A DNA stretch of 61,347 nt from a virus (IMGVR_UViG_3300025736_000026:1-61347), one strand, 5' to 3'; positions 12,321-52,756 are shown, numbered from the stretch's first letter. The notes: generated from the letters alone by a model not told the origin. Numbers and translations are program-made.

Positions 12321-12956
12321 ATGATCATTTGGCTTACAGGTCCTAGATATGAAGATATGACTAAAATTGCGGAGGAGCTCCGGATAGGAATGCCGGCTGC
12401 CATTCTATACTTCTTTGAGATTTTAGATCTTAAGACTATGTCCTATGTAGCCAGATCCTTGGAAGCTCAGATGATGACGGTTATCGCTTGCGGAGGTGCT
12501 AATACTATAGCCAAGCGTCATGAGGTATCTCAAATATGTAATCCTACATGGATACATGTACATCGAAAAGATCACAGTAATGTTGAGTATGAAGAGCCTG
12601 ATCCTGTTAAAGACACTCATCGTCTCGCGCAGGATGAGATGACGCATTATGAGTCGGTTAGACGTATCAGATACATAACGGGCTATACTGCTGAGAAACC
12701 CTATTTGATGTTTATAGGCAATTTTAACCATCTTACAGACGAAATATGCGCAAAAATCCGCTCTTTTGAGGTCGAAAGTACCATTATAATCGCCTTGAAT
12801 GATATACGTAGAGCGCCCGAAAATCCTACTATTACACCCATAATAGCGCGTTTACAAACACTTAGAAGAGAGTTTGGCTCGTCAGTAAAAGTGATAACTA
12901 TTCCCTATGCTGCGAATATTATAATTGAGAAAGACGGAAAGCTTTTGGGGGTATGA
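12321..12956 (+). CDS. degenerate APS-kinase / nucleotidyltransferase-like protein
   Basis: 211 aa. It opens IIWLTGPRYEDMTKIAEELR, which aligns in outline with the WLTG P-loop of adenylylsulfate kinases but lacks the GK(S/T) residues. The middle WIHVHRKDH...YEEPDPVKDTHRLAQDE resembles the APS-kinase end segment (YE.P..P...DT..L). Residues 130-211 start MFIGNFNHLTDE, in the place of the GxFxxxHxGH motif of cytidylyltransferase-like domains, again degenerate. So probably a decayed or repurposed nucleotide-binding protein. It opens the glycan-type cluster. Confidence 0.4.
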   Translation: MIIWLTGPRYEDMTKIAEELRIGMPAAILYFFEILDLKTMSYVARSLEAQMMTVIACGGANTIAKRHEVSQICNPTWIHVHRKDHSNVEYEEPDPVKDTHRLAQDEMTHYESVRRIRYITGYTAEKPYLMFIGNFNHLTDEICAKIRSFEVESTIIIALNDIRRAPENPTITPIIARLQTLRREFGSSVKVITIPYAANIIIEKDGKLLGV

Positions 12957-12957
12957 T

Positions 12958-13668
12958 ATGAGTAGAAGCGTGTGCGTAGGTACCGGCTGGTACTCGGATA
13001 ACGAACGTAGAAATAAAACGAATCCCGCATGCGCCGCAGAATTCTTCGCTCCCGATTATCTTTGGCGTGTATGGTTACCGCATGTAACAAATTCTATAGA
13101 ACCTGGAGCTATTTTTGTTTATGAATCTATATGTGAACTTCCACTTACAAATCCTCCTGAGAATATAGAAGTTATTAGAGGAAAACGTTCGAATGCATCA
13201 AGACCATATTTACGTGATGAGCCGCATGACTGGGGAGCTTCAATAATGATGGGGGCGCAATACGCATATTGTAATGAAATGGACTTCGTATATTTTGAGC
13301 AAGATTGTTTGTGTTATAGATTGGATAAAGCTCTTGAGTGGGCTAGAGGAAAAAATCTTATCTACGGTTTTGGACCTTCAGCGTCATGGCAACCCGGATG
13401 GGCTGAACTAAGTTTTATATATGTTGCTTATAATTTTATACCTCTCTTTATGAAGCGTTTATATAATTTTAAATTGCATATATGGAATAACGATTTTGAT
13501 CGTGTTAAACATCCTGAAATCTGTATACATAAATTATTTCGTGACGACGCGGAATATTGGCCTTTTGGATATGGCCGGGTACTTCCTATCGATTGGAATC
13601 AAGAAGTTTTTTACGCTCAGCAGATGCAAGCAGGTGATCTGAGGAGATTTAAAGGGAAAGTATTGTAG
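12958..13668 (+). CDS. GWYAD/EQDC-domain protein, copy 1 (glycosyltransferase-like)
   Basis: 236 aa; ATG at 12958 one base after the previous TGA. Motifs shared with the C-terminal half of 17489 and with 20360: VGTGWYSD near the start, EVIRGKRS, DWGASIMMGAQYAYCNEMDF, YFEQDC, and EYWPFGYGRVLPIDW near the end. The EQDC motif follows a hydrophobic strand (MDFVYFEQDC), as the DxD of GT-A glycosyltransferases does, so a sugar-transfer or sugar-binding role is inferred, not shown. I cannot name a family. Located immediately before the portal gene. Confidence 0.5.
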   Translation: MSRSVCVGTGWYSDNERRNKTNPACAAEFFAPDYLWRVWLPHVTNSIEPGAIFVYESICELPLTNPPENIEVIRGKRSNASRPYLRDEPHDWGASIMMGAQYAYCNEMDFVYFEQDCLCYRLDKALEWARGKNLIYGFGPSASWQPGWAELSFIYVAYNFIPLFMKRLYNFKLHIWNNDFDRVKHPEICIHKLFRDDAEYWPFGYGRVLPIDWNQEVFYAQQMQAGDLRRFKGKVL

Positions 13669-13678
13669 GAGCTTTGTT

Positions 13679-15055
13679 ATGCCAGAACTTGAAAATGCTG
13701 TAGCAACTGCTCGTAAGCGGGTGCCTCGTACAACCAAAGGGGGTAAAGCTAAGGTTAGCGGGGTTGAAACTTGGAGTAAAGAGGCTTTATTACGACGCAC
13801 GGGAGATTACGTACAAACTCCGGATATATTACGTAAGTGTTATAAACGTTGCGCCTCGTGTCGGTGGTGTGCTGATACTATTGCACGTGAAACTGCTGCG
13901 TTACCTTGGGCCTTTGTACCGAATTATCAAGGTAAGGTAAAACCTCGTACGATACGTAACATAGTGGAACTCACGCAGCTATTTAACGATCCCAATGTTA
14001 ATGAAGAGAGCTTCGCGGATTTACTTCAACAAGCTCTCTTAGACGTTATGGTTTTAGACCGCGGCGTTATTGAAAAAGTTTTTAATGTCGGAGGCCATTT
14101 ATCTGAGCTGTGGGCGCGTAACGGGGCTACTTTCTTTCCCGTTCAAGATGATCATGGTGTTCTACACGGTTACATACAGAAATTTGATGCTGCTAGCCGT
14201 AATATTGAATTCGCGCGTGAAGAAGTTGTATTCATACGTTTATATCCCACTACATATTCAAAATTTGGCCTACCTATTATTGAATCCGTCATTAACGAGA
14301 TTGGCGCATTATTATTCTCAATCGATTGGGTTGCTGAATCCTTTACCGAAGATGATATACCTCCCGGAATCCTTACGCTGGGCGAGATAGGCGAGGAAGC
14401 TTATAAAAGAGCCCGCGCAGATTTTCATGAGGGTAAGGGTCAATCTGGTAAGGGAAAAATACGCGTAATCGATAACGTAAAGGATGCTAAGTGGATACCT
14501 CTTACGCGCTCAAATTCTGAAATGCAGCTTATGGAGCTTTCCGAAAGGCTCGATCGTATTGTTTATCGTAATTTCGATATTGAATATGACGTGGCGGGAA
14601 GTGATACTACAGGCCTTACGCTTACTGAGAAACTTCAAAAGATAAAACTTATTAAGCCTCTCGCACGTAGAGTTGCTTGGAAGATAAACAACGAGATCGT
14701 GCAGCCTATGGGCTACGATGATGTAAGGTTTCAATTTATAATACGCGATACCGTTCCCGAGCAGCAAAGAGCTGCCGCGTCTAAAACTTACGTAATCACA
14801 GGGCAACGTTCAATTAATGAGGAACGCTCAAAAGATGGCTTTCCGCCTATACCGGGTGGAGATAGACGTTTTATATTGATAGGTAAACGTATGGTCTTCG
14901 TTGATAATTTAAATGCGTTACCTTCTGAGACTTTGAATGAAAAGAAGACTGCTACGCGAGAAGGTACTACCGAGCAAGCTACCGAGCAAGAACAAAAAGA
15001 AACTGATGTCGGGAGTAGTCGTGAAGAACAGCCTGTTGAAAGGACAAGGGAGTAA
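13679..15055 (+). CDS. portal protein
   Basis: 458 aa, HK97/SPP1-like portal: a conserved helical wing, the FGLPIIESVI...WVAESFTEDDIPPGIL stretch (about residues 196-238) typical of portals, and a C-terminal SINEERSKDGFPPIPGGDR clip/crown motif (about 380-398). The last 50 residues are charged and disordered. Twelve copies form the DNA gate at one capsid vertex and bind TerL during packaging. Unusually it is separated from protease and capsid by six glycan-type genes. Confidence 0.85.
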   Translation: MPELENAVATARKRVPRTTKGGKAKVSGVETWSKEALLRRTGDYVQTPDILRKCYKRCASCRWCADTIARETAALPWAFVPNYQGKVKPRTIRNIVELTQLFNDPNVNEESFADLLQQALLDVMVLDRGVIEKVFNVGGHLSELWARNGATFFPVQDDHGVLHGYIQKFDAASRNIEFAREEVVFIRLYPTTYSKFGLPIIESVINEIGALLFSIDWVAESFTEDDIPPGILTLGEIGEEAYKRARADFHEGKGQSGKGKIRVIDNVKDAKWIPLTRSNSEMQLMELSERLDRIVYRNFDIEYDVAGSDTTGLTLTEKLQKIKLIKPLARRVAWKINNEIVQPMGYDDVRFQFIIRDTVPEQQRAAASKTYVITGQRSINEERSKDGFPPIPGGDRRFILIGKRMVFVDNLNALPSETLNEKKTATREGTTEQATEQEQKETDVGSSREEQPVERTRE

Positions 15056-15058
15056 ATT

Positions 15059-15676
15059 ATGCCTGTGAAACCTAAATTGCCTCCGGGTATAAATCCTCAG
15101 ATCGCACAAGCGTTTGAGGGGGCACACGTATTTAAACTGGATGGTAAGGAGGATCCTGCTAAGATGGAAGATCAGGATCTTTACTTTGCACATTCAATAT
15201 GCCACGCTTTTTATCGAAATATGTCCAGAGCAATTAAAATTGCAGGCTGGACACAAGAAACTCTTGTCGTTTATTATAAAAAGCTTGTCAAGGAGATGGT
15301 AGCCCGGGCAATGATAGTTGTGCCTACTGATGATATACTCGGCGAGTCTATCGTTGATATAGTACAGGTTCAAGTTACTGAGAAAGAGCTTGGTACGGAA
15401 GATGCCGGGGATGTTCTCACACAGCCAAAGATTCAGGGAGCTAAAAAGAAAAAACCTTCTGAGATGCGTAAAGTTCTCGATTCTACAGATCCCGCAGAAG
15501 TGATGTCGAAAGCTCTAGTATTCTTTCAAAAGTATGATGCGCGTTCCATTTTGTCCGTACTACAAATTGCTGAAGAAGCTGAAATGCTAAAAATGATGGA
15601 GGAAGCACCTGATGCTCAAGCAGCCGAGGAAGAAACCTCAGATGCTCTTAATTCTGGGGGGCCTACGAATCGGTGA
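15059..15676 (+). CDS. head-associated hypothetical protein
   Basis: 205 aa, acidic C-terminus. Residues 112-127 (GTEDAGDVLTQPKIQG) match the N-terminal GTDDAGTVLIQPEIDK of the major capsid protein at 10 of 16 positions, suggesting a shared interaction motif. It follows the portal by 3 nt, so probably a head protein (internal or scaffold-like). No family recognised. Confidence 0.5.
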   Translation: MPVKPKLPPGINPQIAQAFEGAHVFKLDGKEDPAKMEDQDLYFAHSICHAFYRNMSRAIKIAGWTQETLVVYYKKLVKEMVARAMIVVPTDDILGESIVDIVQVQVTEKELGTEDAGDVLTQPKIQGAKKKKPSEMRKVLDSTDPAEVMSKALVFFQKYDARSILSVLQIAEEAEMLKMMEEAPDAQAAEEETSDALNSGGPTNR

Positions 15677-16472
15677 TACTTTTCATATTATACCGTTTCT
15701 TAAGCGTGCCTGTCAAAAATATCATGTTCATTGGATTCACGGTAAGTATGCCGCCCCCGCGGTAGAATTTATTCGTGATTGTATTGTAGGGATGGATATC
15801 TCTAGTGAAGCGCGTTCCGAGATGAAAAGTCTTCCTGGAGGCTATCCCGACGTAAAAGAATTCGCGCTATTAAACATTCAAGATGTTGATATAACTAGTT
15901 ATGATGTAGTAGTACCCCCCGTGGAGAAAATTGATGTCTGGTTTCCCGAGCTTGTATGCCCTAACATGGTTCATACAAGCTTTAACATAGCAGGTGTTGA
16001 ATTCGATAGACGCACGGATGCACTTGTTGCCTTGCGAGATCCCGCACCTCTTCAAGATCATATCGTTGTACAACCTACTACAGTATCTACATGGAAGTGC
16101 AGTGATGCTTTATACTCTATACATTCCAATGCTTTTAGAGGTCGTACTGTCTATAGTGTGGGTAGAGAGAACGAACGCGGTATTCCCGGGCCACAAGTAG
16201 TTTTTAAAGGTTCACGCTCTTTTTCCGAAGTCGCGCAGTTACTCATTTCTGCGCGTTTTGTGGTTACGTTACATAGTGCGATAGCTTGTCTAGCTTATCA
16301 TTTGGGAGTACCTTTAATTTGTGTATCTTTTGGACCGAATCTTTTCCCTTTTCATATAAATCGTCCTAATAATATGGAGCTCATAAAACCTACGGTACCT
16401 CCGTTATTAGAGGCTATTCGTTCTTATATAGATACGCCCCGTAAGCATATTAAAGAGGGAGAACTCACATGA
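15642..16472 (+). CDS. GT9-like (heptosyltransferase-type) glycosyltransferase
   Basis: From ATG 15642 the protein starts LLILGGLRIGDTFHIIPFLKRA, the G-D-T loop typical of GT9 enzymes such as ADP-heptose transferases. The C-terminal domain has VVQPTTVSTWK, SFSEVAQLLISARFVVTLHSAIACLAYHLGVP and ISFGPN-like CVSFGPN, the nucleotide-sugar binding half of the GT-B fold. An ATG at 15612 also has a ribosome site and would add ten basic residues. It overlaps the previous gene. Donor and acceptor unknown. Confidence 0.75.
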   Translation: MLLILGGLRIGDTFHIIPFLKRACQKYHVHWIHGKYAAPAVEFIRDCIVGMDISSEARSEMKSLPGGYPDVKEFALLNIQDVDITSYDVVVPPVEKIDVWFPELVCPNMVHTSFNIAGVEFDRRTDALVALRDPAPLQDHIVVQPTTVSTWKCSDALYSIHSNAFRGRTVYSVGRENERGIPGPQVVFKGSRSFSEVAQLLISARFVVTLHSAIACLAYHLGVPLICVSFGPNLFPFHINRPNNMELIKPTVPPLLEAIRSYIDTPRKHIKEGELT

Positions 16473-17476
16473 GTTTTATAGCCGTCGTAGTGCCCACTAT
16501 ACGTAAAGATTGTATAGAGCGTTTTCTAAAGGAATGGTCTCAAGAATTTACAGAGCAGAATGTGCGCGTATATATTATAGAGGACAATCCTGATATTACT
16601 TTTGATGTTGGAGAACGTTCTTTTAGATACGCACATTATAGTTGGAGGGAGATCGATAAAGATTTAGGCGGTTATTCATGGATAATACCTCGTAAAACTG
16701 ATTGTGTACGTTCATATGGATATTGGAAAGCTTATCAGGATGGAGCTTCTCATATTATTACTCTGGATGATGATTGTTATCCCCCAACGCAGCTTCAATA
16801 TGAGGGGCGAGAAGAGCATCAACCTTATGGAGTGATTGCAAAACATATCGAGCAACTTACAACTCCTGCGAAAGAGAATATTTGGCGTTCTACTATCGAG
16901 GGTTTACGTCCTCGAGGTATTCCGTATAAAAATATTACTAAAGCGCGTCAAGTTATGATTAGCCATGGTTTATGGTTAAACGTACCCGATTTAGACGCTT
17001 TAACACAACTTACGCGTTCGGACAGTTCGTATGTGTACGATTTTATACAGCAGATTGTTCCTTTAGGTTATTACTATCCCATGTGTGGTATGAATGTAGC
17101 TTTTACAAGAGAAGTAGTTCCAGCTATGTATTTTTTACTTATGGGTAAAGGTTACGTTTACGACAGATTTGGTGATATTTGGGCGGGTATTTTTACGAAG
17201 AAAATAGTCGATCATTTAGGCCACGCAGTAGTATCAGGGCTTCCCGTAATATGGCATGAAAGGGCTTCAGATCCTTGGAAGAATTTAGACAAAGAAAAGC
17301 CTGGCTATCACGTTAACGAAAGTTTGTGGGAAATCGTCGATAAAGCCTATTTAAGAGGTACTACTTATTCTGCATGTTATAAAGAGTTAGCTATGCATCT
17401 CGATAAATCTTTGTCGGGTAAATATTGGAATCTTACGACCGCCGCAATGGTGTCTTGGCTAGAACTTTTTGAATAG
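16469..17476 (+). CDS. RGP-family protein (UDP-arabinopyranose mutase-like)
   Basis: 335 aa. It carries hallmarks of reversibly glycosylated polypeptides: VPTIRKDCIERFLKEW at the start, TLDDDCYPP (DDD motif, about residue 99), SHGLWLNVPDLDALTQL (about 165-181), PMCGMNVAFTREVVPAMYF (about 203-221), WAGIFTKKIVDHLGH and GLPVIWHERASDPWKNL. In plants and some bacteria this family interconverts UDP-arabinopyranose and UDP-arabinofuranose and is self-glycosylated on arginine. In a phage it would supply arabinofuranose for a transferase nearby. ATG overlaps the previous stop (ATGA), so co-expressed with the GT9-like gene. Confidence 0.8.
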   Translation: MSFIAVVVPTIRKDCIERFLKEWSQEFTEQNVRVYIIEDNPDITFDVGERSFRYAHYSWREIDKDLGGYSWIIPRKTDCVRSYGYWKAYQDGASHIITLDDDCYPPTQLQYEGREEHQPYGVIAKHIEQLTTPAKENIWRSTIEGLRPRGIPYKNITKARQVMISHGLWLNVPDLDALTQLTRSDSSYVYDFIQQIVPLGYYYPMCGMNVAFTREVVPAMYFLLMGKGYVYDRFGDIWAGIFTKKIVDHLGHAVVSGLPVIWHERASDPWKNLDKEKPGYHVNESLWEIVDKAYLRGTTYSACYKELAMHLDKSLSGKYWNLTTAAMVSWLELFE

Positions 17477-17488
17477 GAGAGTTTAGTA

Positions 17489-19078
17489 ATGAAGACAATG
17501 GTTATTTCCTGCTTAGAGCCACATCATTTGAAGAATTGTTTAGATGCTCTTAAGATGTGGTTACCCGAGGAAGAAATTTACGTTCTTAATAATGGTAATA
17601 CGGACTCACGTACGCATAAGATCGCAACTATAGCTCAAGAGGCTCATGTTAATACGATAAGACCTGCGTACGTCGAAGGGCAGAAAAATACTAAGCCTTT
17701 TATACAGCGTATAACTAATGATTTCGCTAAACGCTTCCCCGATGAAGTTATCCTTAAGGTAGACGAAGATAATATACTTATCTCAGAGCGTGATAAATTT
17801 CTCTTTGAGAGGGGAGCATTTTTCTTTCCGGTATCCACTATTAATAATTATACTACGCGTATATTTTTAAAAAAGTTCTGGCCGGATCTTTTGGAGAAGC
17901 TTGAAGAATGTACGTGGATGTGGCACGAGCCTGATCCTATAGAGTTTAAAAATGTTTTATTCGATGCGATCTATGGAGCACACCCGAAAGATCTTATTAA
18001 ATTTACGGAAACTCAGAATACCCGCGAATATATTACGAGTTCGAATTACGAACAATACGCATTAATGAGTGATCGGGGTATTTCAACGCACGCGGTAGCG
18101 TTCCACGCGCAAGATCATATTGATCACTACGGAGAAGATTCTGAGAATCAAGAAATGTATTTTTTCCGTTTGGTACGTGAAGGTAAAATGCATTATGTTG
18201 TAGATCATAGTACTTTTTGTCATCATGTTAATTATCATACTGTGCGTGAACTTGTACAGAAGAAGCCTGAGTTAGTTGAACTTTTTCATAAGCGTATTTT
18301 TGAGTACTACGCGAAGAAGCCCTCCGTAGCTCGTACAGCATCCGTACGTCCGAAAGTCTGCGTAGCGATCGGTTGGTACGCTGACAAAAGAGGCGGTACG
18401 CGTGGTAGTATAGAATTGGCTCCACAGCTGTTTAAACCTCAGTATTTAGCGGAGACTTTGGTCCCGAGGATTAAAACTCAGCTTAATCCTGAAGCTATTC
18501 TATTGTATATATCTGAGTGTGAGGTACCCCCGGATCCTATACCTGAAGGTGTTGAAGTATTACATGGCAAGCGTCATGCTAAGCGTGATACGAGCCCTGG
18601 AAGAACTTCACCCTATATTATGGGAGCCGCTCATGATTGGGGGGCTACTATGATGGCCGGAGCTATGTATGCGTATTGTAACGATTTAGATTATGTCTTT
18701 TATGAACAGGATTGTCTTATACATAATTTTAGGGCTGCATTGGAATGGGCAAGGAATAAACCCATTGTTTACGGTTACGGCAGTCAAGCTTCATTTAAGT
18801 CGGGATGGGCCGAACCTAGTTTTACATTTGTATCTCGAGAATTCTTACCCGAAATGATGCGCCGCTTAAATCAAGGATTGTGGCATCAGTGGAATAAGGG
18901 GCTCGAACGTTTTATAAATCCCGAGATACAGTTTCATAATACCTTCGCAGACATTGCGGAGTACTGGCCTTTTGGACATGGTATGCTACGGCCAATTAAT
19001 TACGATCAAGAGATTTATTTCGCGCAACGTTTCTCGGAAAAAGACTTTTTGGAATTCTTAAAAAAATCCCCTGTGTAA
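17489..19078 (+). CDS. two-domain glycosyltransferase-like protein (GT-A-like + GWYAD/EQDC copy 2)
   Basis: 529 aa. Residues 1-290 look like a GT-A domain: MVISCLEPHHLKNCLDAL, IYVLNNGNTDS, and ILKVDEDN (VDED, about 95) at the metal-binding position. Residues 292-529 are the GWYAD/EQDC domain: VAIGWYADK, VLHGKRH, HDWGATMMAGAMYAYCNDLD, FYEQDC, EYWPFGHGMLRPINYDQE. The domain is closest to copy 1 (12958). A natural fusion suggests the two activities act on the same substrate. GGAGAG precedes the ATG. Confidence 0.6.
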   Translation: MKTMVISCLEPHHLKNCLDALKMWLPEEEIYVLNNGNTDSRTHKIATIAQEAHVNTIRPAYVEGQKNTKPFIQRITNDFAKRFPDEVILKVDEDNILISERDKFLFERGAFFFPVSTINNYTTRIFLKKFWPDLLEKLEECTWMWHEPDPIEFKNVLFDAIYGAHPKDLIKFTETQNTREYITSSNYEQYALMSDRGISTHAVAFHAQDHIDHYGEDSENQEMYFFRLVREGKMHYVVDHSTFCHHVNYHTVRELVQKKPELVELFHKRIFEYYAKKPSVARTASVRPKVCVAIGWYADKRGGTRGSIELAPQLFKPQYLAETLVPRIKTQLNPEAILLYISECEVPPDPIPEGVEVLHGKRHAKRDTSPGRTSPYIMGAAHDWGATMMAGAMYAYCNDLDYVFYEQDCLIHNFRAALEWARNKPIVYGYGSQASFKSGWAEPSFTFVSREFLPEMMRRLNQGLWHQWNKGLERFINPEIQFHNTFADIAEYWPFGHGMLRPINYDQEIYFAQRFSEKDFLEFLKKSPV

Positions 19079-19091
19079 AAGAGTGTGTAAT

Positions 19092-20363
19092 ATGCATATA
19101 AATTTGATTAATCCACCCTCACCGCATTTAAAACAGCCTGGAGCTCAAGTGCCTCTGGGTATTTTATACATCGCGGCACAATTAAAAATTTTTAATTATT
19201 CTGTTGAGGTTTTGAATTTAAGTTTTTATATTAAAGAGATCGCAATTGATTTAGTAGAGAAAGCTGATGTTTATGGTATCACGTGCACATCTATGCAACT
19301 ACTGGAGGCTGGGAGATTTGCGAAGCTTATTAAAGAGAAGTTTCCTTTAGCCAAGGTTATTTTAGGTGGTCCTGGTACTATAACACCTGAATATGTTGAT
19401 TGGAGATATGTCGATGCTATAGTAGAAAAAGAGGGTGAATATGCTTTTTTGAAGGTCTTAGATGACATTCAAAAGGGCAGGCTTAAAGAGTATTATGTAG
19501 GAAAGTCCATTCAGAATTTAAGCGTTTTGCCTATCCCTTCTCGAGATTTAATTCGGCATCAAGGTGGTGATATATTTGCGTATGGAAAGAAGTATGACGA
19601 AGGTCAAAGTACGCAGATTCTTACAAGTAGGGGTTGTCCGTTTTCATGCGCTTTCTGTGCAGCTAAAAAATTAAATAAAGGTGTGCGTTTTCGCGATTTA
19701 CGTTCTATAGAAGATGAACTTATTGATATTACACAGAATTACGGAATACATCAGTTAAGAGTTGCTGATGAAAACTTTTTTACAGATCGTAAACGTTGCT
19801 TTTCACTGATTGAATTATTTGCTAAGTATAACATTAAATTTCGTATTTCTACACGTGTAAAACCTTTAGACGAGGAATTATGGCGTACGGCCAAAGAAGG
19901 GGGTTTAAAAGAGTTTTCTTTTGGCGTAGAAAGTTTCGACGATGCGGTCTTAAAAGGTTTAAATAAGAAAGCTACTGCGCTGGATAGCATTAAAGCTTTA
20001 GAACTCGCGCATAGGTTGGGAATTTCTTCGAGAGTTTTATTAATGATTCGTACGCCTTTTCAAACACGCGAAACTGTACGTTTGAATATAGAAGCTTTAA
20101 AAAAAGTACCTTTTAACATTATAGCATGCACACATTTTTTACCTTTACCTGGATGCGATATATGGTACAAACCTGATAAATATCGAATACAGATCGTTGA
20201 TAGAAATCTTGATCATTATAATTTTTACGGTTATGGACCTGAAGGACGCAGACATATTTTAAAGATATTCGAGTATATAGATCGTGATACTACTGAGGTA
20301 AACAGGGAATCAGAAGACTTTTTAACTTACTTGGAAGAATCGGGGAAGGTTAATAAAGGATGA
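19092..20363 (+). CDS. B12-binding-domain radical SAM protein
   Basis: 423 aa from ATG 19092 (GTG at 19083 is an alternative). N-terminal half matches cobalamin-binding domains (INLINPPSPHLKQPGAQVPLGILYIAAQL, ITCTSMQ, VILGGPGTI), and the radical SAM core has TSRGCPFSCAFCAAKKLNK (CxxxCxxC near residue 185), then RVADENFF, EFSFGVES and MIRTPFQTRET. Such enzymes do methylations, ring contractions or C-C bonds on sugars, lipids, peptides or bases. In this cluster a sugar or virion-protein modification is likely; substrate unknown. Stop overlaps the next ATG. Confidence 0.8.
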   Translation: MHINLINPPSPHLKQPGAQVPLGILYIAAQLKIFNYSVEVLNLSFYIKEIAIDLVEKADVYGITCTSMQLLEAGRFAKLIKEKFPLAKVILGGPGTITPEYVDWRYVDAIVEKEGEYAFLKVLDDIQKGRLKEYYVGKSIQNLSVLPIPSRDLIRHQGGDIFAYGKKYDEGQSTQILTSRGCPFSCAFCAAKKLNKGVRFRDLRSIEDELIDITQNYGIHQLRVADENFFTDRKRCFSLIELFAKYNIKFRISTRVKPLDEELWRTAKEGGLKEFSFGVESFDDAVLKGLNKKATALDSIKALELAHRLGISSRVLLMIRTPFQTRETVRLNIEALKKVPFNIIACTHFLPLPGCDIWYKPDKYRIQIVDRNLDHYNFYGYGPEGRRHILKIFEYIDRDTTEVNRESEDFLTYLEESGKVNKG

Positions 20364-21058
20364 GAAAAGTAGCTGTTACAGTAGGTTGGTACGCCGACTC
20401 TAAAGGTCACAATAATACAAAAGTGACCTCCCAAGTGCAGACGGCATCTTTTTTAAAGGATACCTGGATGCCGCATATAAGAAAGCAATTGGCTGAGCAT
20501 TTAGGCGCGCTTGTTATATACCAATCTGACTGCGAAATAACAGCTTGGATTCCTCCCGAAAATGATGTCGTGGTTATACGAGGACAACGTTCTCCCACGC
20601 AACACCACCATAACGATTCTGGTGCTACGCAAATGACCGGCGCTATGTATGCTTACTGTAACGAAATGGATTTTATGTTTATTGAACAAGATTGTTTTGT
20701 TGTGGGATTATTAGGCGCCTACAATTGGGCGCGCCAGAACAATGTTAATATAGCATTCAGTACGACGCCGCACTTACAAGATCTTTCGCGGGGCGAACAT
20801 TGTTTTACGTTTGTTTCGTATAAATATTTACCGACTTACATTGATAAATTACTCGCAACACAATGGCATAGTTGGGATACTGGTAGAGGCTTTCCTGAAT
20901 TGAAAATAGAAGAACTCTTTATATGTGATGGAAAACGTTGGCCTTTTGGATACGGACGTATAAGACCTATTAATTGGAATGCTCCTATATTTTATTTCCA
21001 GCAACCCACGCTGGAGGAACTTCAACAAGTAATTTCCCATATGGACAAACACTTTTAA
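20360..21058 (+). CDS. GWYAD/EQDC-domain protein, copy 3
   Basis: 232 aa, stand-alone copy of the domain: VTVGWYADSKG, IRGQRS, GATQMTGAMYAYCNEMDF, FIEQDC, RWPFGYGRIRPINW. It lacks the DWG histidine-aspartate turn found in copies 1 and 2 (here NDSGAT). Last gene of the portal-glycan block; the first 100-nt dispersed element begins on its final codons (21058). Confidence 0.5.
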   Translation: MRKVAVTVGWYADSKGHNNTKVTSQVQTASFLKDTWMPHIRKQLAEHLGALVIYQSDCEITAWIPPENDVVVIRGQRSPTQHHHNDSGATQMTGAMYAYCNEMDFMFIEQDCFVVGLLGAYNWARQNNVNIAFSTTPHLQDLSRGEHCFTFVSYKYLPTYIDKLLATQWHSWDTGRGFPELKIEELFICDGKRWPFGYGRIRPINWNAPIFYFQQPTLEELQQVISHMDKHF

Positions 21059-21157
21059 CTTTGTAATTTACTTTGTACGTAATTTTATTAATAGAAATAC
21101 TTACTAAACTAAAAATGGCTAATTAAAGTTTCTATAAAGAGATTTAACCAAGTAAAT
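21058..21157 (+). repeat. 100-nt dispersed element, copy A
   Basis: Left end ACTTTGTAATTTACTTTGT (21058-21076), right end GAGATTTAACCAAGTAAAT (21139-21157), 81 nt from left start to right start as in copies B (41482) and C (56941). Inner 62 nt share scattered matches (TATTAAT, CTAAAA, ATTAAA, ATAAA). It fills the gap before the protease-scaffold gene. Confidence 0.7.
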
Positions 21158-21189
21158 TTCGATTTCGCCCATAAACAGGAGTTGTAATC

Positions 21190-22692
21190 ATGCCGCATAG
21201 CAGCGTATCTACAGCGCCTTCGAGTTTGAAAAAGCCTGATGGAGATCATGTATGTAGTGTACCTTTCGATGCACCATTCTCCATTACAAAATATTGGTCA
21301 GAACCTTCGACGAATGCGGAGAAGGGGACCGAGGAAAAGTGGTATATCGAAGGCCGCGCAGTTATTGATAAGATGGATTATCAAAACGATGTAGTGTCTC
21401 CTATTGCGATGCAAACAGCCCTGCCAGATCTTGATATTAATTCCACTGTATTATATAATCATCATAACGACGAAGAAGTGGGTAAGATAGCCGCTTATAA
21501 ATTCTTAGGTGATGCTATTTATATTAAGGTGCTTATTTCGAAAACTCGCGCGGATGTCTGGCAAAAGATTCAAGAAGGCGTTCTTCGAAAGTTTTCCATG
21601 CGCGGGAAAGTTCTTGCGTTTGATATTCGTTATGTACCTCAAATTAATACACTTATTCGTTATATTAAAGCGATGACTATTAATGAAATTTCTATTGTGT
21701 CGGTATCGGCACAGGCTGAAGTAGACTTCAAATGGTATGTTGAGAAGCAAGATCAGCCTATGGCGTACCACATAGAGAAAGCCTTCAAATCATCCCAGGA
21801 AGGAGGTGACACATTTATGAAGAAGGCACGCGAAAAAAAGGCTTCCCCGATTCAAATCGTAAAGGCCGAAGACGGGACGCAGACGATTACACTTCAGGTA
21901 CCTGAAGGGTTTGAGAAAGCCGATGGTGCAGCCGCTGCAGATGCTGTAAATCTGGGTGATATTGAGAAAGCTATCCAGGCTGCCAACACCAACATCGACG
22001 CTATCATTCAAGCCGCAGGCCAGGTACCCGAGGATGCTACGGATGCGATCAAAGCTCTGTTCGGCAAAATCGGCGAAGCCGCCGAAGCGCTTAAAAAGAG
22101 TGGCGTAAGCGCAGAAGAAGATCCCGCCGCTCAAAAAGCCTCGGAGGAAGAAAAACCCTCCGGAAATACGCTCCAGATTGTACTGCCCGGCAATGCAGCT
22201 GTAACGCAAAAAGCCGACGAAGCCGCCGCGGAGGAAAAGCCTCCGAAGACGGATCTCACCGCGGACATCCTGGCCGATGCGAATTTCCAGAAGGCTTTAC
22301 TGGGCTACGTTGAAAAGGGCCTAAGCATGGACGAAGCCATTTCCAAGGCCTCAGAAGACCTGCAGAAGGCCAGCGAAGCCGCAGCCGGCGATCAAACCGG
22401 GATTGTCAAATCCCTGGTAGATGCGCTCGCGAAAAAAGACCAGCATTCCGAAACCGTCAACACGGCGGTGACACAGCTGGCAGAAATCGTAAGCGGACAG
22501 TCCGCTTTGATCGATACCCTGCAAAAATCCGTTAATGCTATCCCGATCCGGAAGGGTCTACAGCTTACCGATGAGCAGGTTGAGACAGAGCGCGACGGAA
22601 TCGCTAAATCCTTGGAGGGCAAAGAACCTCGGGATCAGTTAATGACGATCCTGTCTTACGCCCTCAAAGACCAAATGCAGCCAACGACTTGA
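21190..22692 (+). CDS. prohead protease fused to scaffold
   Basis: 500 aa. Residues 40-190 are an S78/HK97-type prohead protease: YIEGRAVIDKMDYQNDVVSP, VLYNHHNDEEVGK (catalytic His region) and EGVLRKFSMRGKV (Ser region). Residues 210-500 are a charged, alanine-rich helical scaffold (EAAEALKKSGVSAEE, ALLGYVEKGLSMDEAI). Protease plus scaffold in one gene is well known; the protein templates capsid assembly and then digests itself and the capsid N-terminus. An internal start at 21817 would make scaffold alone. AACAGGAGTTG precedes the ATG. Confidence 0.8.
   Translation: MPHSSVSTAPSSLKKPDGDHVCSVPFDAPFSITKYWSEPSTNAEKGTEEKWYIEGRAVIDKMDYQNDVVSPIAMQTALPDLDINSTVLYNHHNDEEVGKIAAYKFLGDAIYIKVLISKTRADVWQKIQEGVLRKFSMRGKVLAFDIRYVPQINTLIRYIKAMTINEISIVSVSAQAEVDFKWYVEKQDQPMAYHIEKAFKSSQEGGDTFMKKAREKKASPIQIVKAEDGTQTITLQVPEGFEKADGAAAADAVNLGDIEKAIQAANTNIDAIIQAAGQVPEDATDAIKALFGKIGEAAEALKKSGVSAEEDPAAQKASEEEKPSGNTLQIVLPGNAAVTQKADEAAAEEKPPKTDLTADILADANFQKALLGYVEKGLSMDEAISKASEDLQKASEAAAGDQTGIVKSLVDALAKKDQHSETVNTAVTQLAEIVSGQSALIDTLQKSVNAIPIRKGLQLTDEQVETERDGIAKSLEGKEPRDQLMTILSYALKDQMQPTT
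21817..22692 (+). CDS. scaffold protein from internal start (nested)
   Basis: AAGGAGGTGA (21800-21809) lies seven bases before an in-frame ATG at codon 210 of the protease gene; this is a much stronger site than that of the full-length start. Codon use changes here from AT-rich to GC-rich, the same bias as the capsid gene, as expected if this segment is made in large amounts. The 291-aa product would be the scaffold without protease, like lambda Nu3 nested in gene C. Confidence 0.7.
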   Translation: MKKAREKKASPIQIVKAEDGTQTITLQVPEGFEKADGAAAADAVNLGDIEKAIQAANTNIDAIIQAAGQVPEDATDAIKALFGKIGEAAEALKKSGVSAEEDPAAQKASEEEKPSGNTLQIVLPGNAAVTQKADEAAAEEKPPKTDLTADILADANFQKALLGYVEKGLSMDEAISKASEDLQKASEAAAGDQTGIVKSLVDALAKKDQHSETVNTAVTQLAEIVSGQSALIDTLQKSVNAIPIRKGLQLTDEQVETERDGIAKSLEGKEPRDQLMTILSYALKDQMQPTT

Positions 22693-22709
22693 GAGGAGGT
22701 GAGTTAGCA

Positions 22710-23639
22710 ATGGTCGACATCCGCAAATCTTTGGGCACTGATGACGCCGGAACGGTTCTTATCCAGCCGGAAATCGATAAGGTATTGCAACACCTCGTCG
22801 AGTTCAAGAATCCGCTGCGTCAGAATTTACCCCGAAAAAGTGGATCAGGTCCTTCCTGGTATTTGAATCGTCGAACGCCTGGCACCACAGGTGCACAGTT
22901 CGTCGCCGATAAGGATACGATCGACGAGGATCAGGGTAGTTACGCCCGTGTTGAGTTTCCTTACAAGACTATTGCCGCAAAGGGCAAAGTCACACGTAAG
23001 ATGCAAGCTATCGGGCGGAGTTACATCGATGTCCTCGCTGAGGAAATCGAGGCTCGCGTAGTCGAATTCAAGGACTACGATGATTGGGCCCTATTCCGTG
23101 GAAGTATCACCAGCAGCGCCAATCAGTACGACGGATTGGACATCCTGGTCACTCAGACGGTATCATGTGCCACTACGACAAGTGCCGGTCCGATGACGCT
23201 GGCAAAACTGGATCAAGCTATCGATACTTGTTCCGGGGATCCTAATATGATCATCGCGTCGAAGCGATCGCGCCGGGTACTCAATCAACTCCTGCAGTCC
23301 CAGCAGCGCTTCGTAAATATCGTTGAAGTCCGCGGCGGTTTTAAAGTCATGACTTACAACGGTATCCCGATCTTTACGTCCACGAACATCCTCGATACGA
23401 TGTTAATGGCTTCGGGAGGCGCCTCGGTAGCGGCATACACAGGTGGGGATGCTTCGTCACTATACATCCTGGACACCGAGTTTGCCTGGGTCGGGGAATT
23501 AACGCCCCTCACGATCGAACCCCTGGCGAAAACCAGCTCGCAGTTTGACGAGTTCGATCTGTATTGTGATGAAGCGCTCGTTATTGCCAACGCAGAGAAG
23601 CATGTGCGTTTGATCGGAATCAGCGGCAGCACTTCATAA
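22710..23639 (+). CDS. major capsid protein
   Basis: 309 aa, HK97-fold type. GAGAGGAGGTGAGTTAGCA precedes ATG 22710. N-arm region DDAGTVLIQPEIDKVLQHL, a P-domain/E-loop segment (WYLNRRTPGTTGAQFV), long spine helix region (IDVLAEEIEARVVEFKDYDDWALFRG) and a C-terminal A-domain-like part with NMIIASKRSRRVL and ITFxV-type strands. GC-rich codons mark it as highly expressed. It follows the scaffold by 17 nt. Confidence 0.8.
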   Translation: MVDIRKSLGTDDAGTVLIQPEIDKVLQHLVEFKNPLRQNLPRKSGSGPSWYLNRRTPGTTGAQFVADKDTIDEDQGSYARVEFPYKTIAAKGKVTRKMQAIGRSYIDVLAEEIEARVVEFKDYDDWALFRGSITSSANQYDGLDILVTQTVSCATTTSAGPMTLAKLDQAIDTCSGDPNMIIASKRSRRVLNQLLQSQQRFVNIVEVRGGFKVMTYNGIPIFTSTNILDTMLMASGGASVAAYTGGDASSLYILDTEFAWVGELTPLTIEPLAKTSSQFDEFDLYCDEALVIANAEKHVRLIGISGSTS

Positions 23640-24450: not shown

Positions 24451-27400
24451 ATGAAACGCGTAATTATAGGGTTATGTATTTTAGCCCTTTGCGGTGTAAG
24501 CTCCGGGCAGTCCCGAGATCCGAAGAAAGTGATCGAAAAAGCCACGTCACTGTCCTTGCGAGGTAATTTCGGTTTTGCCGGTGAGAACGCGCGCTTCGGC
24601 GTGCCGGGTTTTGCTTCAGCTCCAGGAACTACATTGAGCAATGGGATGTTTTATTACAATTCCGTTGCGCATAAGTTCTACGGCTACATAGGTGGAGTTT
24701 GGACAGAGATGTCAAGTGGTGGTACCGTTTCATACCCTATAGCTTTAGGCTTGGGAGGTACTGGTGTTGCTCTTGCAAATGGTACAGCTGGTCAGATTAT
24801 GCGTTCATCTGGAGCAGGAGCAGTCACTTGGAGCACAGCAACATACCCTACATCAGTAGGCGCATATGAAATATTATATGGTACTTCAGCCAATATAGTT
24901 GGAAGTTTGGGTATTGGAACTGCAAACTATCTTTTGGCAGTAAATGCGACAACCAATGGTTATGTATGGAAGAACCCGGCAGACTTTGAGCCTGTTGTAA
25001 GTTTAACTGCGAGTAGAGCTTTGGTGTCAACTGCTGGAGGGGCGTTGGGTGTATCAGCTACAACCGCAACGGAAATAGGGTATGTATCTGGTTTAAGTGG
25101 TGCTGTTCAAGGTCAAATTGATGGGAAGGAGCCGGCATTAAGTAAAAGTAATTTAACAGGAACGACTCCTGTCAATGTTTCTAACTCCCCACAGATTATG
25201 GGAGTGTCTGCTTCTGCAATTACAATAGATGATGCAGATGCTAATGGAGCAACCAAAGGTGCTGCAGCATTCGCAACAAATGATTTTGATGCAGCAGCAG
25301 GAGTAATTTCTATTGATTATACAAATGGGCAAGCAGCAGCCACTGGGGTAAAGGGGTTTTTAACAGGCGGAGACTGGGATACATTTAATAGTAAAAGTGA
25401 TTTTGACCCATCAAGTACTTTTACTGTAGGTGCAACGGGTTGTGATTATACTACAATTCAAGCGGCAATTACAGCAGGTTCTGGTGGAGAGACAATTCTT
25501 GTTTTTCCTGGGACGTATACAGAAACAATAACATTTGATATTGATAGTGTGAGCATTATTGGGATGGGGCATGGTCAAAATATTATTTTGACTCAAGCGG
25601 ATGCCAACATCGTTGATTTTGCCACTTTTACACACAATTCCATTTCTAATATGGCTATTCAATTAACAGCGCCGACGGACGGTACTAAAGATGCGATTAC
25701 AATTAGTACTGGTTCGGCCAGTGTACGCGAATGTGCATTATATCTTGCAACAGCGTCAGCAATTGCCGGTGTGGATCAGCCACATATTGCAAATGTAACA
25801 GGGGCCGGGACGTTAAATATCCATAGAGGGAAAGCGATATATAGACATACAGGCGCAACTACTAATGGGATGAAGACGCCGTTTTATTGTGGTGCAGGAG
25901 CGACTCTTAACTTATACAAGATATCTAACATTGATATTGATAATAGTGGAACGGCAACTGCATCGGGAATCTTTGCTCACACCACAACAGGTACAATAGA
26001 TATGAATTTCTGTACTGCGGATGTAGACGATAATGATGCAACGTTTACAGTTGGTTTTGGGTATATTGCAGGTACAGCAACAACACTTGAATATTCTTAT
26101 AATGATATACATGTTCATGCACATGACAATAATGCGTATGGTATTTATGTTTTGAGTGCAGAGATTAGATTAATGTTTAACCATATCCACGTGGAGGAAG
26201 ATGGTACCGGTGCTGCATATGGATTAGTGGAAGCGGGTTCTGGAACCATAGACAGTCAATTGGATGATATTGTGGCATTAGGAGGATCATCTGGAAATAT
26301 TGTTTATGTACATTCAACGGCGGATGGAGATTTTGGGGTTTCCGGCACCCTTAGTGCTACGCGTACAATGGGTGTCACTCCCAATGATGCACTTGGTTTA
26401 AGGTTACAGAATACCACAAATGCAGCGGCTGGAGCACAGCAATGGAGTCCAGGTTTAACAATGCAGGCTAATGGATGGAAAACAGATGCAACAGCAGCAA
26501 GCCAGCCAGTTGAGTTTATGTTGGATGCTCGATCAGTACAAGACGCTGCGGCGCCAACTGGGTACTGGGGTGTTTACCCCTCAATAAATAATGCGGCGTA
26601 CAGTGCAACACCGGCTCTTTCGGTTTTATCTAGCGGTAACGTCGGCATTGGGACAATAAGTGCTCTCGGGCATTTAAATATAGAAACTTCTGTTACTAAT
26701 GCCGCATCAGGAAATTCGTATGGCTTTAGAAATATCGTAACTAAAACGACGTCAACAGGTGATAGAACCATATCAGCATTTAGCAATGTTGTCTCGGCGG
26801 GAACTGATGGTAGTTGTGTAGGCCTTTGGGGAGTGGATATCCAAATCAACAATGAAAGTACTGGGACAGTTCCAAACCTTTATAGTACATATAATGGTAT
26901 TTTAATAGGTTCTGCTTCTGCAAGTACTGCTGCGTACGGTACTAAAACTTATATTAACAACGAAGGACTTACTACAAATGCTTATGGCAATAATATATAC
27001 GTACGCAATAACTCCAATAATGCTGTTTTGACAAATGCTTATGGAGATTACATTTATGTGCAAAACAGTCGTGGAGTTCTTAGCAACGCTTTTGGTGTAT
27101 ATATAGAAGATGTTCAGGGAGATACACTTTCATACGGTATATATCAGGCTGGTGGAGATGATAATTATTTCAGTGGAAATACAGGTTTCGGGACAGCGTT
27201 TCCAGAAGCAGCTTTACATATATTGAATTCAACAGCTCCGCAACAAATATGGACACATACTAATGGAGCGGATAGTTTAACACTTGGAGTTGATGGTGAT
27301 GGTGATGCCACATTAACACCTAGCGGTGGTGATTTGAGTGTAGCAGGTAATTTTGCAGCTACTACGTACGAAACGGATGTATCTGCGGCGGAGTTGGGAT

Positions 27401-27876
27401 ATATAAGTACGGTATCATCCAACGTTCAAGATCAGTTGGATGCAAAGTCCGCAGTTCAATGGAACGCTGGCTTGACTGTAAATGAAACTTATTCAGGCCA
27501 GACAACTTCTATTACGGTTGGAGAAACTGTAGTATTCGGCCAGGCATTAGTTAAGAAGGATGATGGTGAATACTATTTAACAGATGCCGATGCTATAACC
27601 ACAATGCCAGCAATGTGTGTTGCACTAGAAGGAAAGGCCGATGGAGAAGCTTGTATTGCTTTAGTGCTAGGATGGGTTTGTGACACTGATTGGAGTTGGA
27701 CTGTTGGTGATGGAATGGCAAATCTTCTATATCCAGATGATACAACATCAGGTTCATTGGTACAGCAGGCTGGTAAACCGTCGGACACGGGAGATCAATT
27801 AGCACCGTGCGGACATGTAGAATCAACTACATGTATTTATTTCAATCCGTCTTACGTGGTAGTAGAGGTAAATTAA
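24451..27876 (+). CDS. exported tail-fibre-like protein with beta-helix
   Basis: 1141 aa. Residues 1-20 (KRVIIGLCILALCGVSSGQ) are a clear Sec signal peptide, odd for a phage fibre. Then GLGGTGVALANGTAGQIMRS and IGYVSGLSGAVQGQI fibre repeats, a right-handed beta-helix starting at about 330 (TTIQAAITAG...ILVFPGTYTETI, pectate-lyase type), further GVYPSINN / NVGIGT segments, and a compact C-terminal domain (VKKDDGEYYLTDAD...). Codon use changes after the first 90 codons: GC-rich at the start, then AT-rich with GGA and AGA. Either a fibre with an N-terminal export tag or a protein displayed on or secreted by the infected cell. Confidence 0.65.
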   Translation: MKRVIIGLCILALCGVSSGQSRDPKKVIEKATSLSLRGNFGFAGENARFGVPGFASAPGTTLSNGMFYYNSVAHKFYGYIGGVWTEMSSGGTVSYPIALGLGGTGVALANGTAGQIMRSSGAGAVTWSTATYPTSVGAYEILYGTSANIVGSLGIGTANYLLAVNATTNGYVWKNPADFEPVVSLTASRALVSTAGGALGVSATTATEIGYVSGLSGAVQGQIDGKEPALSKSNLTGTTPVNVSNSPQIMGVSASAITIDDADANGATKGAAAFATNDFDAAAGVISIDYTNGQAAATGVKGFLTGGDWDTFNSKSDFDPSSTFTVGATGCDYTTIQAAITAGSGGETILVFPGTYTETITFDIDSVSIIGMGHGQNIILTQADANIVDFATFTHNSISNMAIQLTAPTDGTKDAITISTGSASVRECALYLATASAIAGVDQPHIANVTGAGTLNIHRGKAIYRHTGATTNGMKTPFYCGAGATLNLYKISNIDIDNSGTATASGIFAHTTTGTIDMNFCTADVDDNDATFTVGFGYIAGTATTLEYSYNDIHVHAHDNNAYGIYVLSAEIRLMFNHIHVEEDGTGAAYGLVEAGSGTIDSQLDDIVALGGSSGNIVYVHSTADGDFGVSGTLSATRTMGVTPNDALGLRLQNTTNAAAGAQQWSPGLTMQANGWKTDATAASQPVEFMLDARSVQDAAAPTGYWGVYPSINNAAYSATPALSVLSSGNVGIGTISALGHLNIETSVTNAASGNSYGFRNIVTKTTSTGDRTISAFSNVVSAGTDGSCVGLWGVDIQINNESTGTVPNLYSTYNGILIGSASASTAAYGTKTYINNEGLTTNAYGNNIYVRNNSNNAVLTNAYGDYIYVQNSRGVLSNAFGVYIEDVQGDTLSYGIYQAGGDDNYFSGNTGFGTAFPEAALHILNSTAPQQIWTHTNGADSLTLGVDGDGDATLTPSGGDLSVAGNFAATTYETDVSAAELGYISTVSSNVQDQLDAKSAVQWNAGLTVNETYSGQTTSITVGETVVFGQALVKKDDGEYYLTDADAITTMPAMCVALEGKADGEACIALVLGWVCDTDWSWTVGDGMANLLYPDDTTSGSLVQQAGKPSDTGDQLAPCGHVESTTCIYFNPSYVVVEVN

Positions 27877-27877
27877 C

Positions 27878-30289
27878 ATGAAAAAGCTTATACTATTGAT
27901 AGCATTTTTATTGTTTGTCCCGCAGGTCTCTGCGCAATTTGGGCAAATTGTTTTAGTTGATAGTTTGGAGTTTGAGTCTGGGCAATGTAGAAGTGGCATA
28001 TCCGTACAGATAGCAACGGACACTTTTGCTATTGCATATCGTGATGAACCTGGATATTTAAAGTTTGTTATAGTAGATATGGGTGAGGACGCTGTTATAG
28101 GTGGAGTCATAGATACGCAACAATTTGGAGGTTGGTTAATCCGCGAAGGGCATGATATGTTTTTCGAGCAGGTTGGGTCTACAGATTACTTTGCCATGGG
28201 TATATTAGAAGATACTGGCGACGATCTGTGGGTGTGTACCATGGATTTTTCTGATGCAACCAACATTTCAACAGTGTTTAATGATTCTTTAGAAATAGAA
28301 ACAGATGATGCAAGGCATTCATATGCCAATTATGTTTCGGGAACAGAACATTGGGTTATTGGTTCAAGTCCGGAAGCTACCGCGCAACCTCACTATTATG
28401 GAGTTACTATAGCAGAGTCCGATGGTTCTATCACATTGAATAATGAAGTTGATTCAGGCGTTAATGGAACATTGAGGGGATTAGAGTGGTGCGGTGGTAT
28501 TGCTTTTGCATCAACATATATGAATGCTGCATCAGATCCAACTTGTAATTCAATGACTTTAAATACCACAACAGGTCAAGTGTCAAGTGTTGTTGAGACT
28601 ATAGTACTTAAGGAAACAACAGGTAGATACCCAAGACCTGTTAGGATACCCGGTACAAATAATTTTTTAGTGATATCAGATATTGCGAATAGAACAGAAT
28701 TGGATTATTATACAATGTCTATAAATCCAACCACGGCTGATTTATCAGATACCCCTCTTGATAGTTGGCTGAATTTGGCTTCTTCTTGGATTACTCCAAT
28801 AACAGGACCTATATTTGATAATGTTGTTGATTCACTATGTTATTCAGGATATATCAATAATACAACAGATAAGCAGTTGTACTTGCATACATTTGTTTTA
28901 AGTAAGGAATCAGGAGAATTTCCCGTAGGACTTAGAAGTTCTAAGTTCATAACAACTTCGGATGGGTATTTTGATATACGTAAAGGGGCAGGGCAGGCAA
29001 ATTTATTGGTGGTGTCTAAAGCTGATGTTGATGGTTGGGTATATTCTTTTACGACAGAGAACGTTGGCGAGATATTATATTTTGCATCCGCGGTTGTACA
29101 ACCTTCTAAAGCATCTCTTTCTACTTTTTCTTTAGCAACAGCATCGGGGGCAATATCAGATGCACCTATTGATACATATACACTTGCAACTAATGCCGTT
29201 AATTTAGAAGAGCAAATTGATATGATCAAGATTACTGGTACAGACCAATATGTTGTAGTGTGGTCTGCTTCAGATAATGTAGGCAAAATGGCAACGATTC
29301 AGATATCCGCTGAAGGAGTGATTGCGGCTTCGGCTACAGATTCGATTGACTTTGCAGTTTATGGTAACTCGCCGAGAATACATCAAGTACCGTCTTCTAA
29401 TTATTTCACGATGTCCTATTTTGACGGAGCAGATACAAAAGCAGCCACTTTTTCTATTACAGATGCGGGAGATATTAATCCAACGAAAGTGGATTCATTG
29501 GACATAACAAATGTAACTTACGTCCCCGAGTTATGTTATCTGGGAAGCAACCACTATATTGTAACAGGTTGGGGAGCAGGTTCGGATGGTTTCTTATCTA
29601 CTTTTGGAGTAAATGCGTCTACTGGTGTTATAACTGCTGTTATAGATGCGTTTGAGTTTCATCCATTGAATTTCTATTCTTCAGATAAAATGTATCAGAT
29701 TTCAACATCACAATATTATATCCTTGCTTCTCGTGCAACGGGGGCGAATCATTATACTTTTGATATCACAGCTGCAACTGGAGATGTAGTGGGAGATGCA
29801 GTTGTAGAGAGCGGAACTAATGTAGTTGCATATAAACCGCGTTCGATGGCACCCACTACGGTAGACACACTTATTGTGCAATCTTATGTTGATTCCGATT
29901 CTGATGCTTGGTTACGTACATTTAGGGCAAACAAGACTGATGGGTCTATTACAGATTCATATAGAGTAGCGGTTGATAGCATCGAATTTGAAGTTTCACA
30001 AGGAGACCCGTTTTATATAATGGCAACAAGTGTTCCAGATTGGTTTATTGTTGGAGGTCAGGGAACTACAGATGCGGATGGTTACGTGTATTCATTTGAT
30101 GTAAATGTAGAGGGTGGAATAACAGGTCCCGCAGATAAGCTCGAAGTAGAAACTGTTTATTGCCAAGGAATAGTGGTAGTTGAGTTGTCGGAGGCGGCAG
30201 GGTGGGGGCATAAAATAATGGGGATTGAACCTGGAAAAGTTATGGGCTTGCTTAAAGCAGAAATTGCCAAAGTGATGGGAGTTGAATGA
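27878..30289 (+). CDS. exported beta-propeller-like protein
   Basis: 803 aa. Signal peptide at residues 1-20 (KKLILLIAFLLFVPQVSAQ). The rest is a run of 30-60-residue beta repeats (e.g. VDSLEFESGQCRSGISVQI, MYQISTSQYYILASR) with repeated WV, YV and GD turns as in beta-propellers; no catalytic motif seen. Two bases follow the 24451 stop, so the two are co-translated. The C-terminal 30 residues (KIMGIEPGKVMGLLKAEIAKVMGVE) contain a KVMG repeat. AT-rich codons set it apart from most of the window. Confidence 0.6.
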   Translation: MKKLILLIAFLLFVPQVSAQFGQIVLVDSLEFESGQCRSGISVQIATDTFAIAYRDEPGYLKFVIVDMGEDAVIGGVIDTQQFGGWLIREGHDMFFEQVGSTDYFAMGILEDTGDDLWVCTMDFSDATNISTVFNDSLEIETDDARHSYANYVSGTEHWVIGSSPEATAQPHYYGVTIAESDGSITLNNEVDSGVNGTLRGLEWCGGIAFASTYMNAASDPTCNSMTLNTTTGQVSSVVETIVLKETTGRYPRPVRIPGTNNFLVISDIANRTELDYYTMSINPTTADLSDTPLDSWLNLASSWITPITGPIFDNVVDSLCYSGYINNTTDKQLYLHTFVLSKESGEFPVGLRSSKFITTSDGYFDIRKGAGQANLLVVSKADVDGWVYSFTTENVGEILYFASAVVQPSKASLSTFSLATASGAISDAPIDTYTLATNAVNLEEQIDMIKITGTDQYVVVWSASDNVGKMATIQISAEGVIAASATDSIDFAVYGNSPRIHQVPSSNYFTMSYFDGADTKAATFSITDAGDINPTKVDSLDITNVTYVPELCYLGSNHYIVTGWGAGSDGFLSTFGVNASTGVITAVIDAFEFHPLNFYSSDKMYQISTSQYYILASRATGANHYTFDITAATGDVVGDAVVESGTNVVAYKPRSMAPTTVDTLIVQSYVDSDSDAWLRTFRANKTDGSITDSYRVAVDSIEFEVSQGDPFYIMATSVPDWFIVGGQGTTDADGYVYSFDVNVEGGITGPADKLEVETVYCQGIVVVELSEAAGWGHKIMGIEPGKVMGLLKAEIAKVMGVE

Positions 30290-52515: not shown

Positions 52516-52756
52516 AACGCTACAGCGTATAAAGGCGTTCGACAAAACAGTTCGAACGCCTTTACCTCGCTATGCTAAAATATCGGTCTTGCGAAGATTC
52601 TTGCGTGCATTTATCCCGCAAATACCCGCGGCAGTGTTAGCGGGTATTAAAGCGGATAGTTTTTGGGTAGGCTTCGGCCTCACAGTACTCGGAGCATCTG
52701 GGACTGCCTTGGATAAATGTTTGCGCGAAAAGAAAAGAGTGCGGGATGCGTTATAA
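52502..52756 (+). CDS. holin-like membrane protein, start uncertain
   Basis: From GTG 52502 the product is 84 aa; longer in-frame reading is possible (to 52412) but overlaps the 38-aa gene. Contains RRFLRAFIPQIPAAVLAGI and WVGFGLTVLGASGTALDKCLREKKR: a PQ...-type helix, a membrane segment and a DK-LRE tail found in small phage proteins near lysins. Sits right after the endolysin, so holin is plausible. Ribosome site weak. Confidence 0.45.
   Translation: MAESKTLQRIKAFDKTVRTPLPRYAKISVLRRFLRAFIPQIPAAVLAGIKADSFWVGFGLTVLGASGTALDKCLREKKRVRDAL

Follow-up and report, generated by a model that had tools for sequence, protein, structure and literature searches.

What is a set of sugar enzymes doing among the head genes of a phage? 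The question is raised by a 61 kb virus contig from IMG/VR (IMGVR_UViG_3300025736_000026:1-61347; the whole stretch of 61,347 nucleotides is referred to here as the window), in which six enzyme genes lie at positions 12958-21058, with the portal gene and gene g10 among them. The original prediction, made from the sequence alone, described seven genes that together look like a self-contained pathway making an unusual glycan and attaching it, possibly to the virion. Its coordinates and gene order are correct and the enzyme cluster is present, but the count is six enzyme genes, or eight genes with the portal gene and g10. We hold with moderate confidence that this cassette is a virion-glycosylation pathway expressed together with the head genes.

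From 12321 to 23639 the genes follow each other almost without gaps on the plus strand, in the order g7, g8, portal, g10, g11, g12, g13, g14, g15, protease and capsid; g25 and g42, described below, are on the plus strand too. The open reading frames (ORFs) of g7 to g15 are open and collinear with intergenic spacings of -65 to +12 bases, including 4-base overlaps at g11/g12 and g14/g15; the largest gap of the region (131 bases) is located directly before the protease gene. Several starts overlap the preceding stops, as in a translationally coupled operon. Because the cassette abuts and overlaps head genes, it is probably read together with them. The head genes comprise the portal gene g9 (13679-15055; PF04860, E 3.2e-21; phrog_12, 1.3e-37), the head maturation protease gene g16 (21190-22692; phrog_9427, 8e-8) and the gene for the major capsid protein, g17 (22689-23639; phrog_212, 2e-18), whose product is a candidate acceptor. 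The predicted interleaving with portal and a head protein thus holds for the portal, whereas g10 (15059-15676), which has no family match and is linked to the portal gene in all relatives, can be called a head protein only on the strength of its position and this conserved linkage.

Relatives were collected by scans of viral contigs, which delivered L004, L006 and L007, the latter two records being fragments. L004 is the same virus, with 100% identity in all window proteins that fall in it, and L075, which shares its source metagenome with L004, has 99.6% identity to L007. Both L006 and L007 carry portal, g10, g11, g12, g13, g14, g15 and protease in the same order, with 49-75% amino acid identity in the five enzymes g11-g15 and 60-71% in the portal; the capsid protein is 83% identical in L006. 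Three divergent phages therefore have the cassette at one fixed place, after portal/g10 and before the protease, and glycosyltransferase genes are conserved inside a virion-structure module. Lack of co-occurrence in relatives had been named beforehand, along with unmodified virion proteins, as speaking against the prediction; co-occurrence was looked for and found. In g11-g15 the proportion of synonymous differences (pS) is 0.61-0.80, near saturation, against a nonsynonymous proportion (pN) of 0.17-0.36. All five enzymes are under purifying selection: with pS near saturation while pN is low they have been kept by selection, and with collinearity in two divergent phages in addition the cluster is not due to chance. 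Genes g7 and g8 are absent at the corresponding place in L006 and L007, so that g8 is seen in this lineage only, and no third GWYAD copy was found elsewhere in these fragmentary records. Presence and absence as a pair suggests a two-gene insertion or loss. For g7 (12321-12956), called a degenerate kinase in the original prediction, no Pfam or NCBIfam match and only a chance-level PHROG match were obtained, and that label is unconfirmed.

The newest part of the system is the GWYAD/EQDC domain, an undescribed glycosyltransferase family. Three copies had been predicted, and the whole-window search shows them to be paralogues, 38-40% identical to g15: they stand alone in g8 (12958-13668) and g15 (20360-21058) and form the C-terminal part (about 18344-19078) of g13 (17489-19078). 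The domain has no convincing match in Pfam, PHROGs, NCBIfam or the PDB sequences and falls into none of the named glycosyltransferase families. Across 24 diverse members, which also served as input for AlphaFold, the residues G10, E114, Q115, D116, C117, E187 and Q221 are invariant. The resulting model is of high confidence (predicted local distance difference test, pLDDT, 90.4; predicted template modelling score, pTM, 0.90). Foldseek matched it to alpha-1,3-galactosyltransferases and chondroitin synthase subunits in the PDB (E about 1e-5), and VIA gave Z values of 12-13 for LARGE1, GlyE, mannosylglycerate synthase, glycogenin and COLGALT1. The top PDB matches are GT-A enzymes, plus a few nucleotidyltransferases with a similar Rossmann-like fold. 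Since these matches are tied at about 6-11% identity, the predicted GT-A glycosyltransferase fold is clear but the family is not. In the model the loop that joins strands 109-113 and 117-120, the site of the DXD motif in GT-A enzymes, is occupied by E-Q-D-C, and the acidic E-Q-D may bind a metal.

The firmest functional assignment in the cassette belongs to g12 (16469-17476), which is most probably a GT75-type mutase interconverting the pyranose and furanose forms of a nucleoside diphosphate (NDP) sugar. The RGP-like character ascribed to it earlier was confirmed by a full-length match to PF03214 (E 3.6e-45, residues 4-334 of 335), and a profile search against structures returned MtdL (8.5e-32) and UDP-arabinopyranose mutase (UAM; 8e-27). 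Structure 7yua was recognized as MtdL by its residue numbering, which agrees with the published DDD at 109-111. In MtdL, R159 is the likely nucleophile with D195 and D260 as partners, R257 serves binding, and D109-D111 and H287 hold Mn (Du et al. 2023, PMC9937993). The aligned equivalents in g12 are R149, D174, D236, R233, D100-D102 and H263, all invariant in the three phages; D78, R81 and R265 are conserved besides. A literature search found no paper on a phage RGP. One ORF in another contig (L063:8321-10375) matches the RGP profile in two separate stretches and is perhaps a split or doubled mutase.

Gene g14 (19083-20363) encodes a B12-binding radical SAM enzyme, as predicted, with a B12-binding domain (PF02310, E 1.9e-12), a radical SAM domain (PF04055, E 2.4e-20) and a CxxxCxxC motif at residues 185-192 whose cysteines C185, C189 and C192 are invariant in the three phages. 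It matches many members of the B12 radical SAM class, all below the curated subfamily cut-offs. The closest solved sequence is AprD4 (E 3e-10), an aminoglycoside-tailoring enzyme, and for the function of g14 one may reasonably guess that it C-methylates or deoxygenates a sugar. Four phage records match it with about 25-27% identity over half its length. No paper on phage B12 radical SAM enzymes together with glycosyltransferases was found in a literature search.

The putative GT-B glycosyltransferase g11 (15612-16472) had been labelled GT9-like, for which the matches are weak: E 0.12 and 12.2 of 22 bits in Pfam, E 0.004 and 16 of 467 bits for the NCBIfam heptosyltransferase, far under the curated GT9 cut-off. 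An hhalign comparison with GT9-like neighbors of other GWYAD genes gave E 0.0016 and a probability of 16% over 236 columns. In g13 a GT-A-like domain with a DEDN motif, likewise a weak assignment, is fused in front of the GWYAD/EQDC domain. Hydropathy analysis detected no membrane helix in any cassette protein; the only stretch above 1.6 lies in g11, inside the predicted GT-B core.

Degenerate-pattern scans delivered 30 GWYAD loci, about 20 of them distinct and beyond this clade, with duplicates judged by equal match scores. For 16 loci the 102 same-strand ORFs within 3.5 kb of GWYAD were tallied; they comprise 9 matches to Methyltransf_24 and 8 to Methyltransf_11 (methyltransferase models overlap in what they match), 6 each to GT9 and GT2, and 3 each to FkbM, epimerase, radical SAM and Mu F. 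The control of 103 farther ORFs in the same 16 loci gave 4 GT2, 2 GT9 and 1 epimerase, and those methyltransferase models were absent among the 25 families shown for it. In at least five of the roughly 20 further contigs GWYAD has a portal, Mu F-type, protease or capsid gene in its neighborhood. Head genes close to GWYAD or RGP were confirmed individually. The locus follows the portal and Mu F-type minor head genes in L012, lies between a Mu F-type head morphogenesis gene and the protease gene in L016 and L035, and follows a Mu F-type head morphogenesis gene in L027 and the capsid gene in L026. Because these contigs are not close to the window, the association with head genes has arisen or been kept repeatedly. 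An RGP gene is flanked by a minor head gene and the capsid gene in L039; many phages have RGP but lack GWYAD, and the converse also occurs. A fusion of GT9 and GWYAD domains in L027 (6485-8191), located directly after the Mu F-type gene, offers a compact test case made by nature. In L033 (3272-12081) a GWYAD gene is accompanied by two radical SAM genes of the B12 type and by several genes that resemble glycosyltransferases, a second meeting of both enzyme kinds.

Among the INPHARED phage records there was no DNA match to the window and no protein match for g15. Pattern scans for g14, g11 and the N-terminal domain of g13 returned this clade only. In genome contigs, where the degenerate pattern reaches only sequences that hold it, relatives were detected neither for GWYAD nor for the N-terminal domain of g13, and no prophage context or host was therefore obtained. 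No paper on the origin of the metagenome samples was found.

A glycan pathway is supported by the predicted GT-A folds of the GWYAD domains, the GT75 active site of g12, the B12-type radical SAM enzyme and the similar clusters in the head modules of unrelated phages. In the pathway that we infer, the host would supply an NDP-pyranose donor, g12 would turn it into an NDP-furanose via an arginine-sugar adduct, and g14 would tailor the sugar through radical chemistry that depends on B12, either C-methylating or deoxygenating it, so that g12 and g14 would act on one common sugar. The glycosyltransferases g11, g13, g8 and g15 would then attach sugars to virion proteins in the cytosol while the head is being assembled, and g25 perhaps likewise transfers a sugar or extends the chain. 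The product would be a furanose-type, radical-SAM-tailored sugar, and the order of these steps is a proposal. The acceptor would be a virion protein; a head protein is the most likely one, given that head genes surround the cassette and that the neighborhood recurs in other phages; the absence of membrane helices fits a soluble cytosolic acceptor. Several points weigh against virion glycosylation. No NDP-sugar synthesis gene was recognized in the 61 kb record, so that the donor is presumably made by the host and the pathway would not be self-contained as had been suggested. A place in a late operon speaks for the timing of the pathway and not for its acceptor. The assignments of g11 and of the N-terminal domain of g13 are weak, the AlphaFold model of the latter reaching a pLDDT of only 46. 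Finally, the GWYAD loci of L009, L021 and L014 are large sugar clusters, and no head gene was seen in their vicinity.

The main rival, which we consider unlikely, is that the cassette glycosylates the DNA of the phage itself as a hypermodification against host nucleases, with the glycosyltransferases acting on a modified base and the position among head genes reflecting nothing but timing. Virus-encoded glycosyltransferases that place diverse glycans on DNA are known, according to Pyle 2024 as cited in PMC12619734, and in Shewanella phage Thanatos the cytosine is decorated with a pentose (PMC12838424). Here, however, the genes sit with portal and protease, away from the replication genes at 53.9-61 kb, and no homolog of thymidylate synthase or dCMP hydroxymethylase (PF00303) was found in the 61 kb record, a weak point as the record may be a fragment. 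Thanatos shows that direct attachment of the sugar to the base is possible as well.

Still less credence is given to an action on host surface polysaccharide, for receptor masking or superinfection exclusion. Gene g25 matches the GtrB-like phrog_841 (1e-16) and some GWYAD loci carry pyruvyl transferase and sulfatase genes, but no flippase, polymerase or membrane-bound lipid-carrier transferase was recognized, the cassette proteins look soluble, and these are late genes of the head module, active at a stage at which a change of receptor would help least. This explanation is less likely because nothing membrane-bound was seen. That the genes represent one or several morons whose minor tasks have nothing to do with each other (such as takeover of host metabolism for g12 and g14) and are neighbors by accident is the least probable explanation: it would suit the pairwise coming and going of g7 and g8 and the separate occurrence of RGP and GWYAD, but five genes hold their exact order in divergent phages under purifying selection, and GWYAD is repeatedly associated with GT9 and sugar-tailoring genes when compared with the farther ORFs.

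Virion glycosylation, which we continue to prefer, may also involve genes outside the cassette. Gene g25 (31844-34171) had been predicted as a triple glycosyltransferase with TPR; the three GT2 stretches stand (PF00535, E 7.5e-40), whereas the TPR match is weak (E 0.0076). It is 73% identical over 770 residues in a relative. After the tail region, g42 (52746-53519) encodes a protein of the sulfatase/alkaline phosphatase superfamily (PF00884, 4.7e-5), 43 residues of which are 49% identical to a gene adjoining GWYAD in L021; it may add a charged group to the glycan or remove one as extra tailoring. Two large post-capsid proteins (1141 and 803 amino acids; 24451-30289) belong to no family and are candidates for glycan acceptors or for surface proteins; conservation of the first in L006 is poor (29-41% in pieces, versus 83% for the capsid protein). 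A small ORF at 8449 was rejected as a gene, since it seems to shadow the terminase region in another reading frame.

Glycosylated particles have so far been demonstrated for a small number of phages. A recognizable conserved gene set and the GWYAD family, present in many uncultured phages and often beside head genes, make it possible to ask which phages sugar-coat themselves, which sugars they use and what such a coat acts against (the host surface, antibodies, heat or rival phages), and the phage GT75 and B12 radical SAM enzymes are possible sources of rare furanose and tailored sugars. A wider proposal, which we regard as tentative and rather doubtful, is that GWYAD/EQDC is a phage-centered family of protein-directed GT-A enzymes active during head assembly in many unrelated tailed phages, here attaching a furanose methylated or deoxygenated by the B12 radical SAM enzyme. 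We know of no other example of B12-dependent sugar chemistry on a virus particle.

Among known systems, mycobacteriophages such as Che8, Rita and their relatives are reported to have capsid and tail-tube subunits that bear glycans (Freeman 2023, as cited in PMC12619734 and PMC11256854) and, like the virus described here, encode their own glycosyltransferases. In Maravista the putative glycosyltransferase genes are reported to lie near the 3' end of the genome, whereas here a conserved five-gene set, proposed to serve glycosylation, is located inside the head module; it combines a furanose mutase and a B12 radical SAM enzyme with an unclassified GT-A family. With the GT75 enzymes MtdL, Hyg20 and plant UAM/RGP, g12 shares a full-length match and the catalytic residue set, but it is phage-borne and part of a head module. 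The GWYAD domain resembles GT-A enzymes (GT6, GT8, LARGE, mannosylglycerate synthase) in its modelled fold and the acidic motif in the DXD loop, and differs in the lack of sequence similarity, the replacement of DXD by E-Q-D-C and the absence of a family in Pfam, NCBIfam or PHROGs. Domain order and CxxxCxxC motif link g14 to the B12 radical SAM enzymes AprD4, CysS and TokK, although it scores far below every curated cut-off of the named subfamilies. Phage DNA glycan hypermodification likewise combines phage glycosyltransferases with sugar-supply enzymes, whereas here no base-modifying enzyme was found in the record and the genes are grouped with head genes. Virion glycosylation itself is known from some mycobacteriophages; the differences here are the gene set, the glycosyltransferase family and the position.

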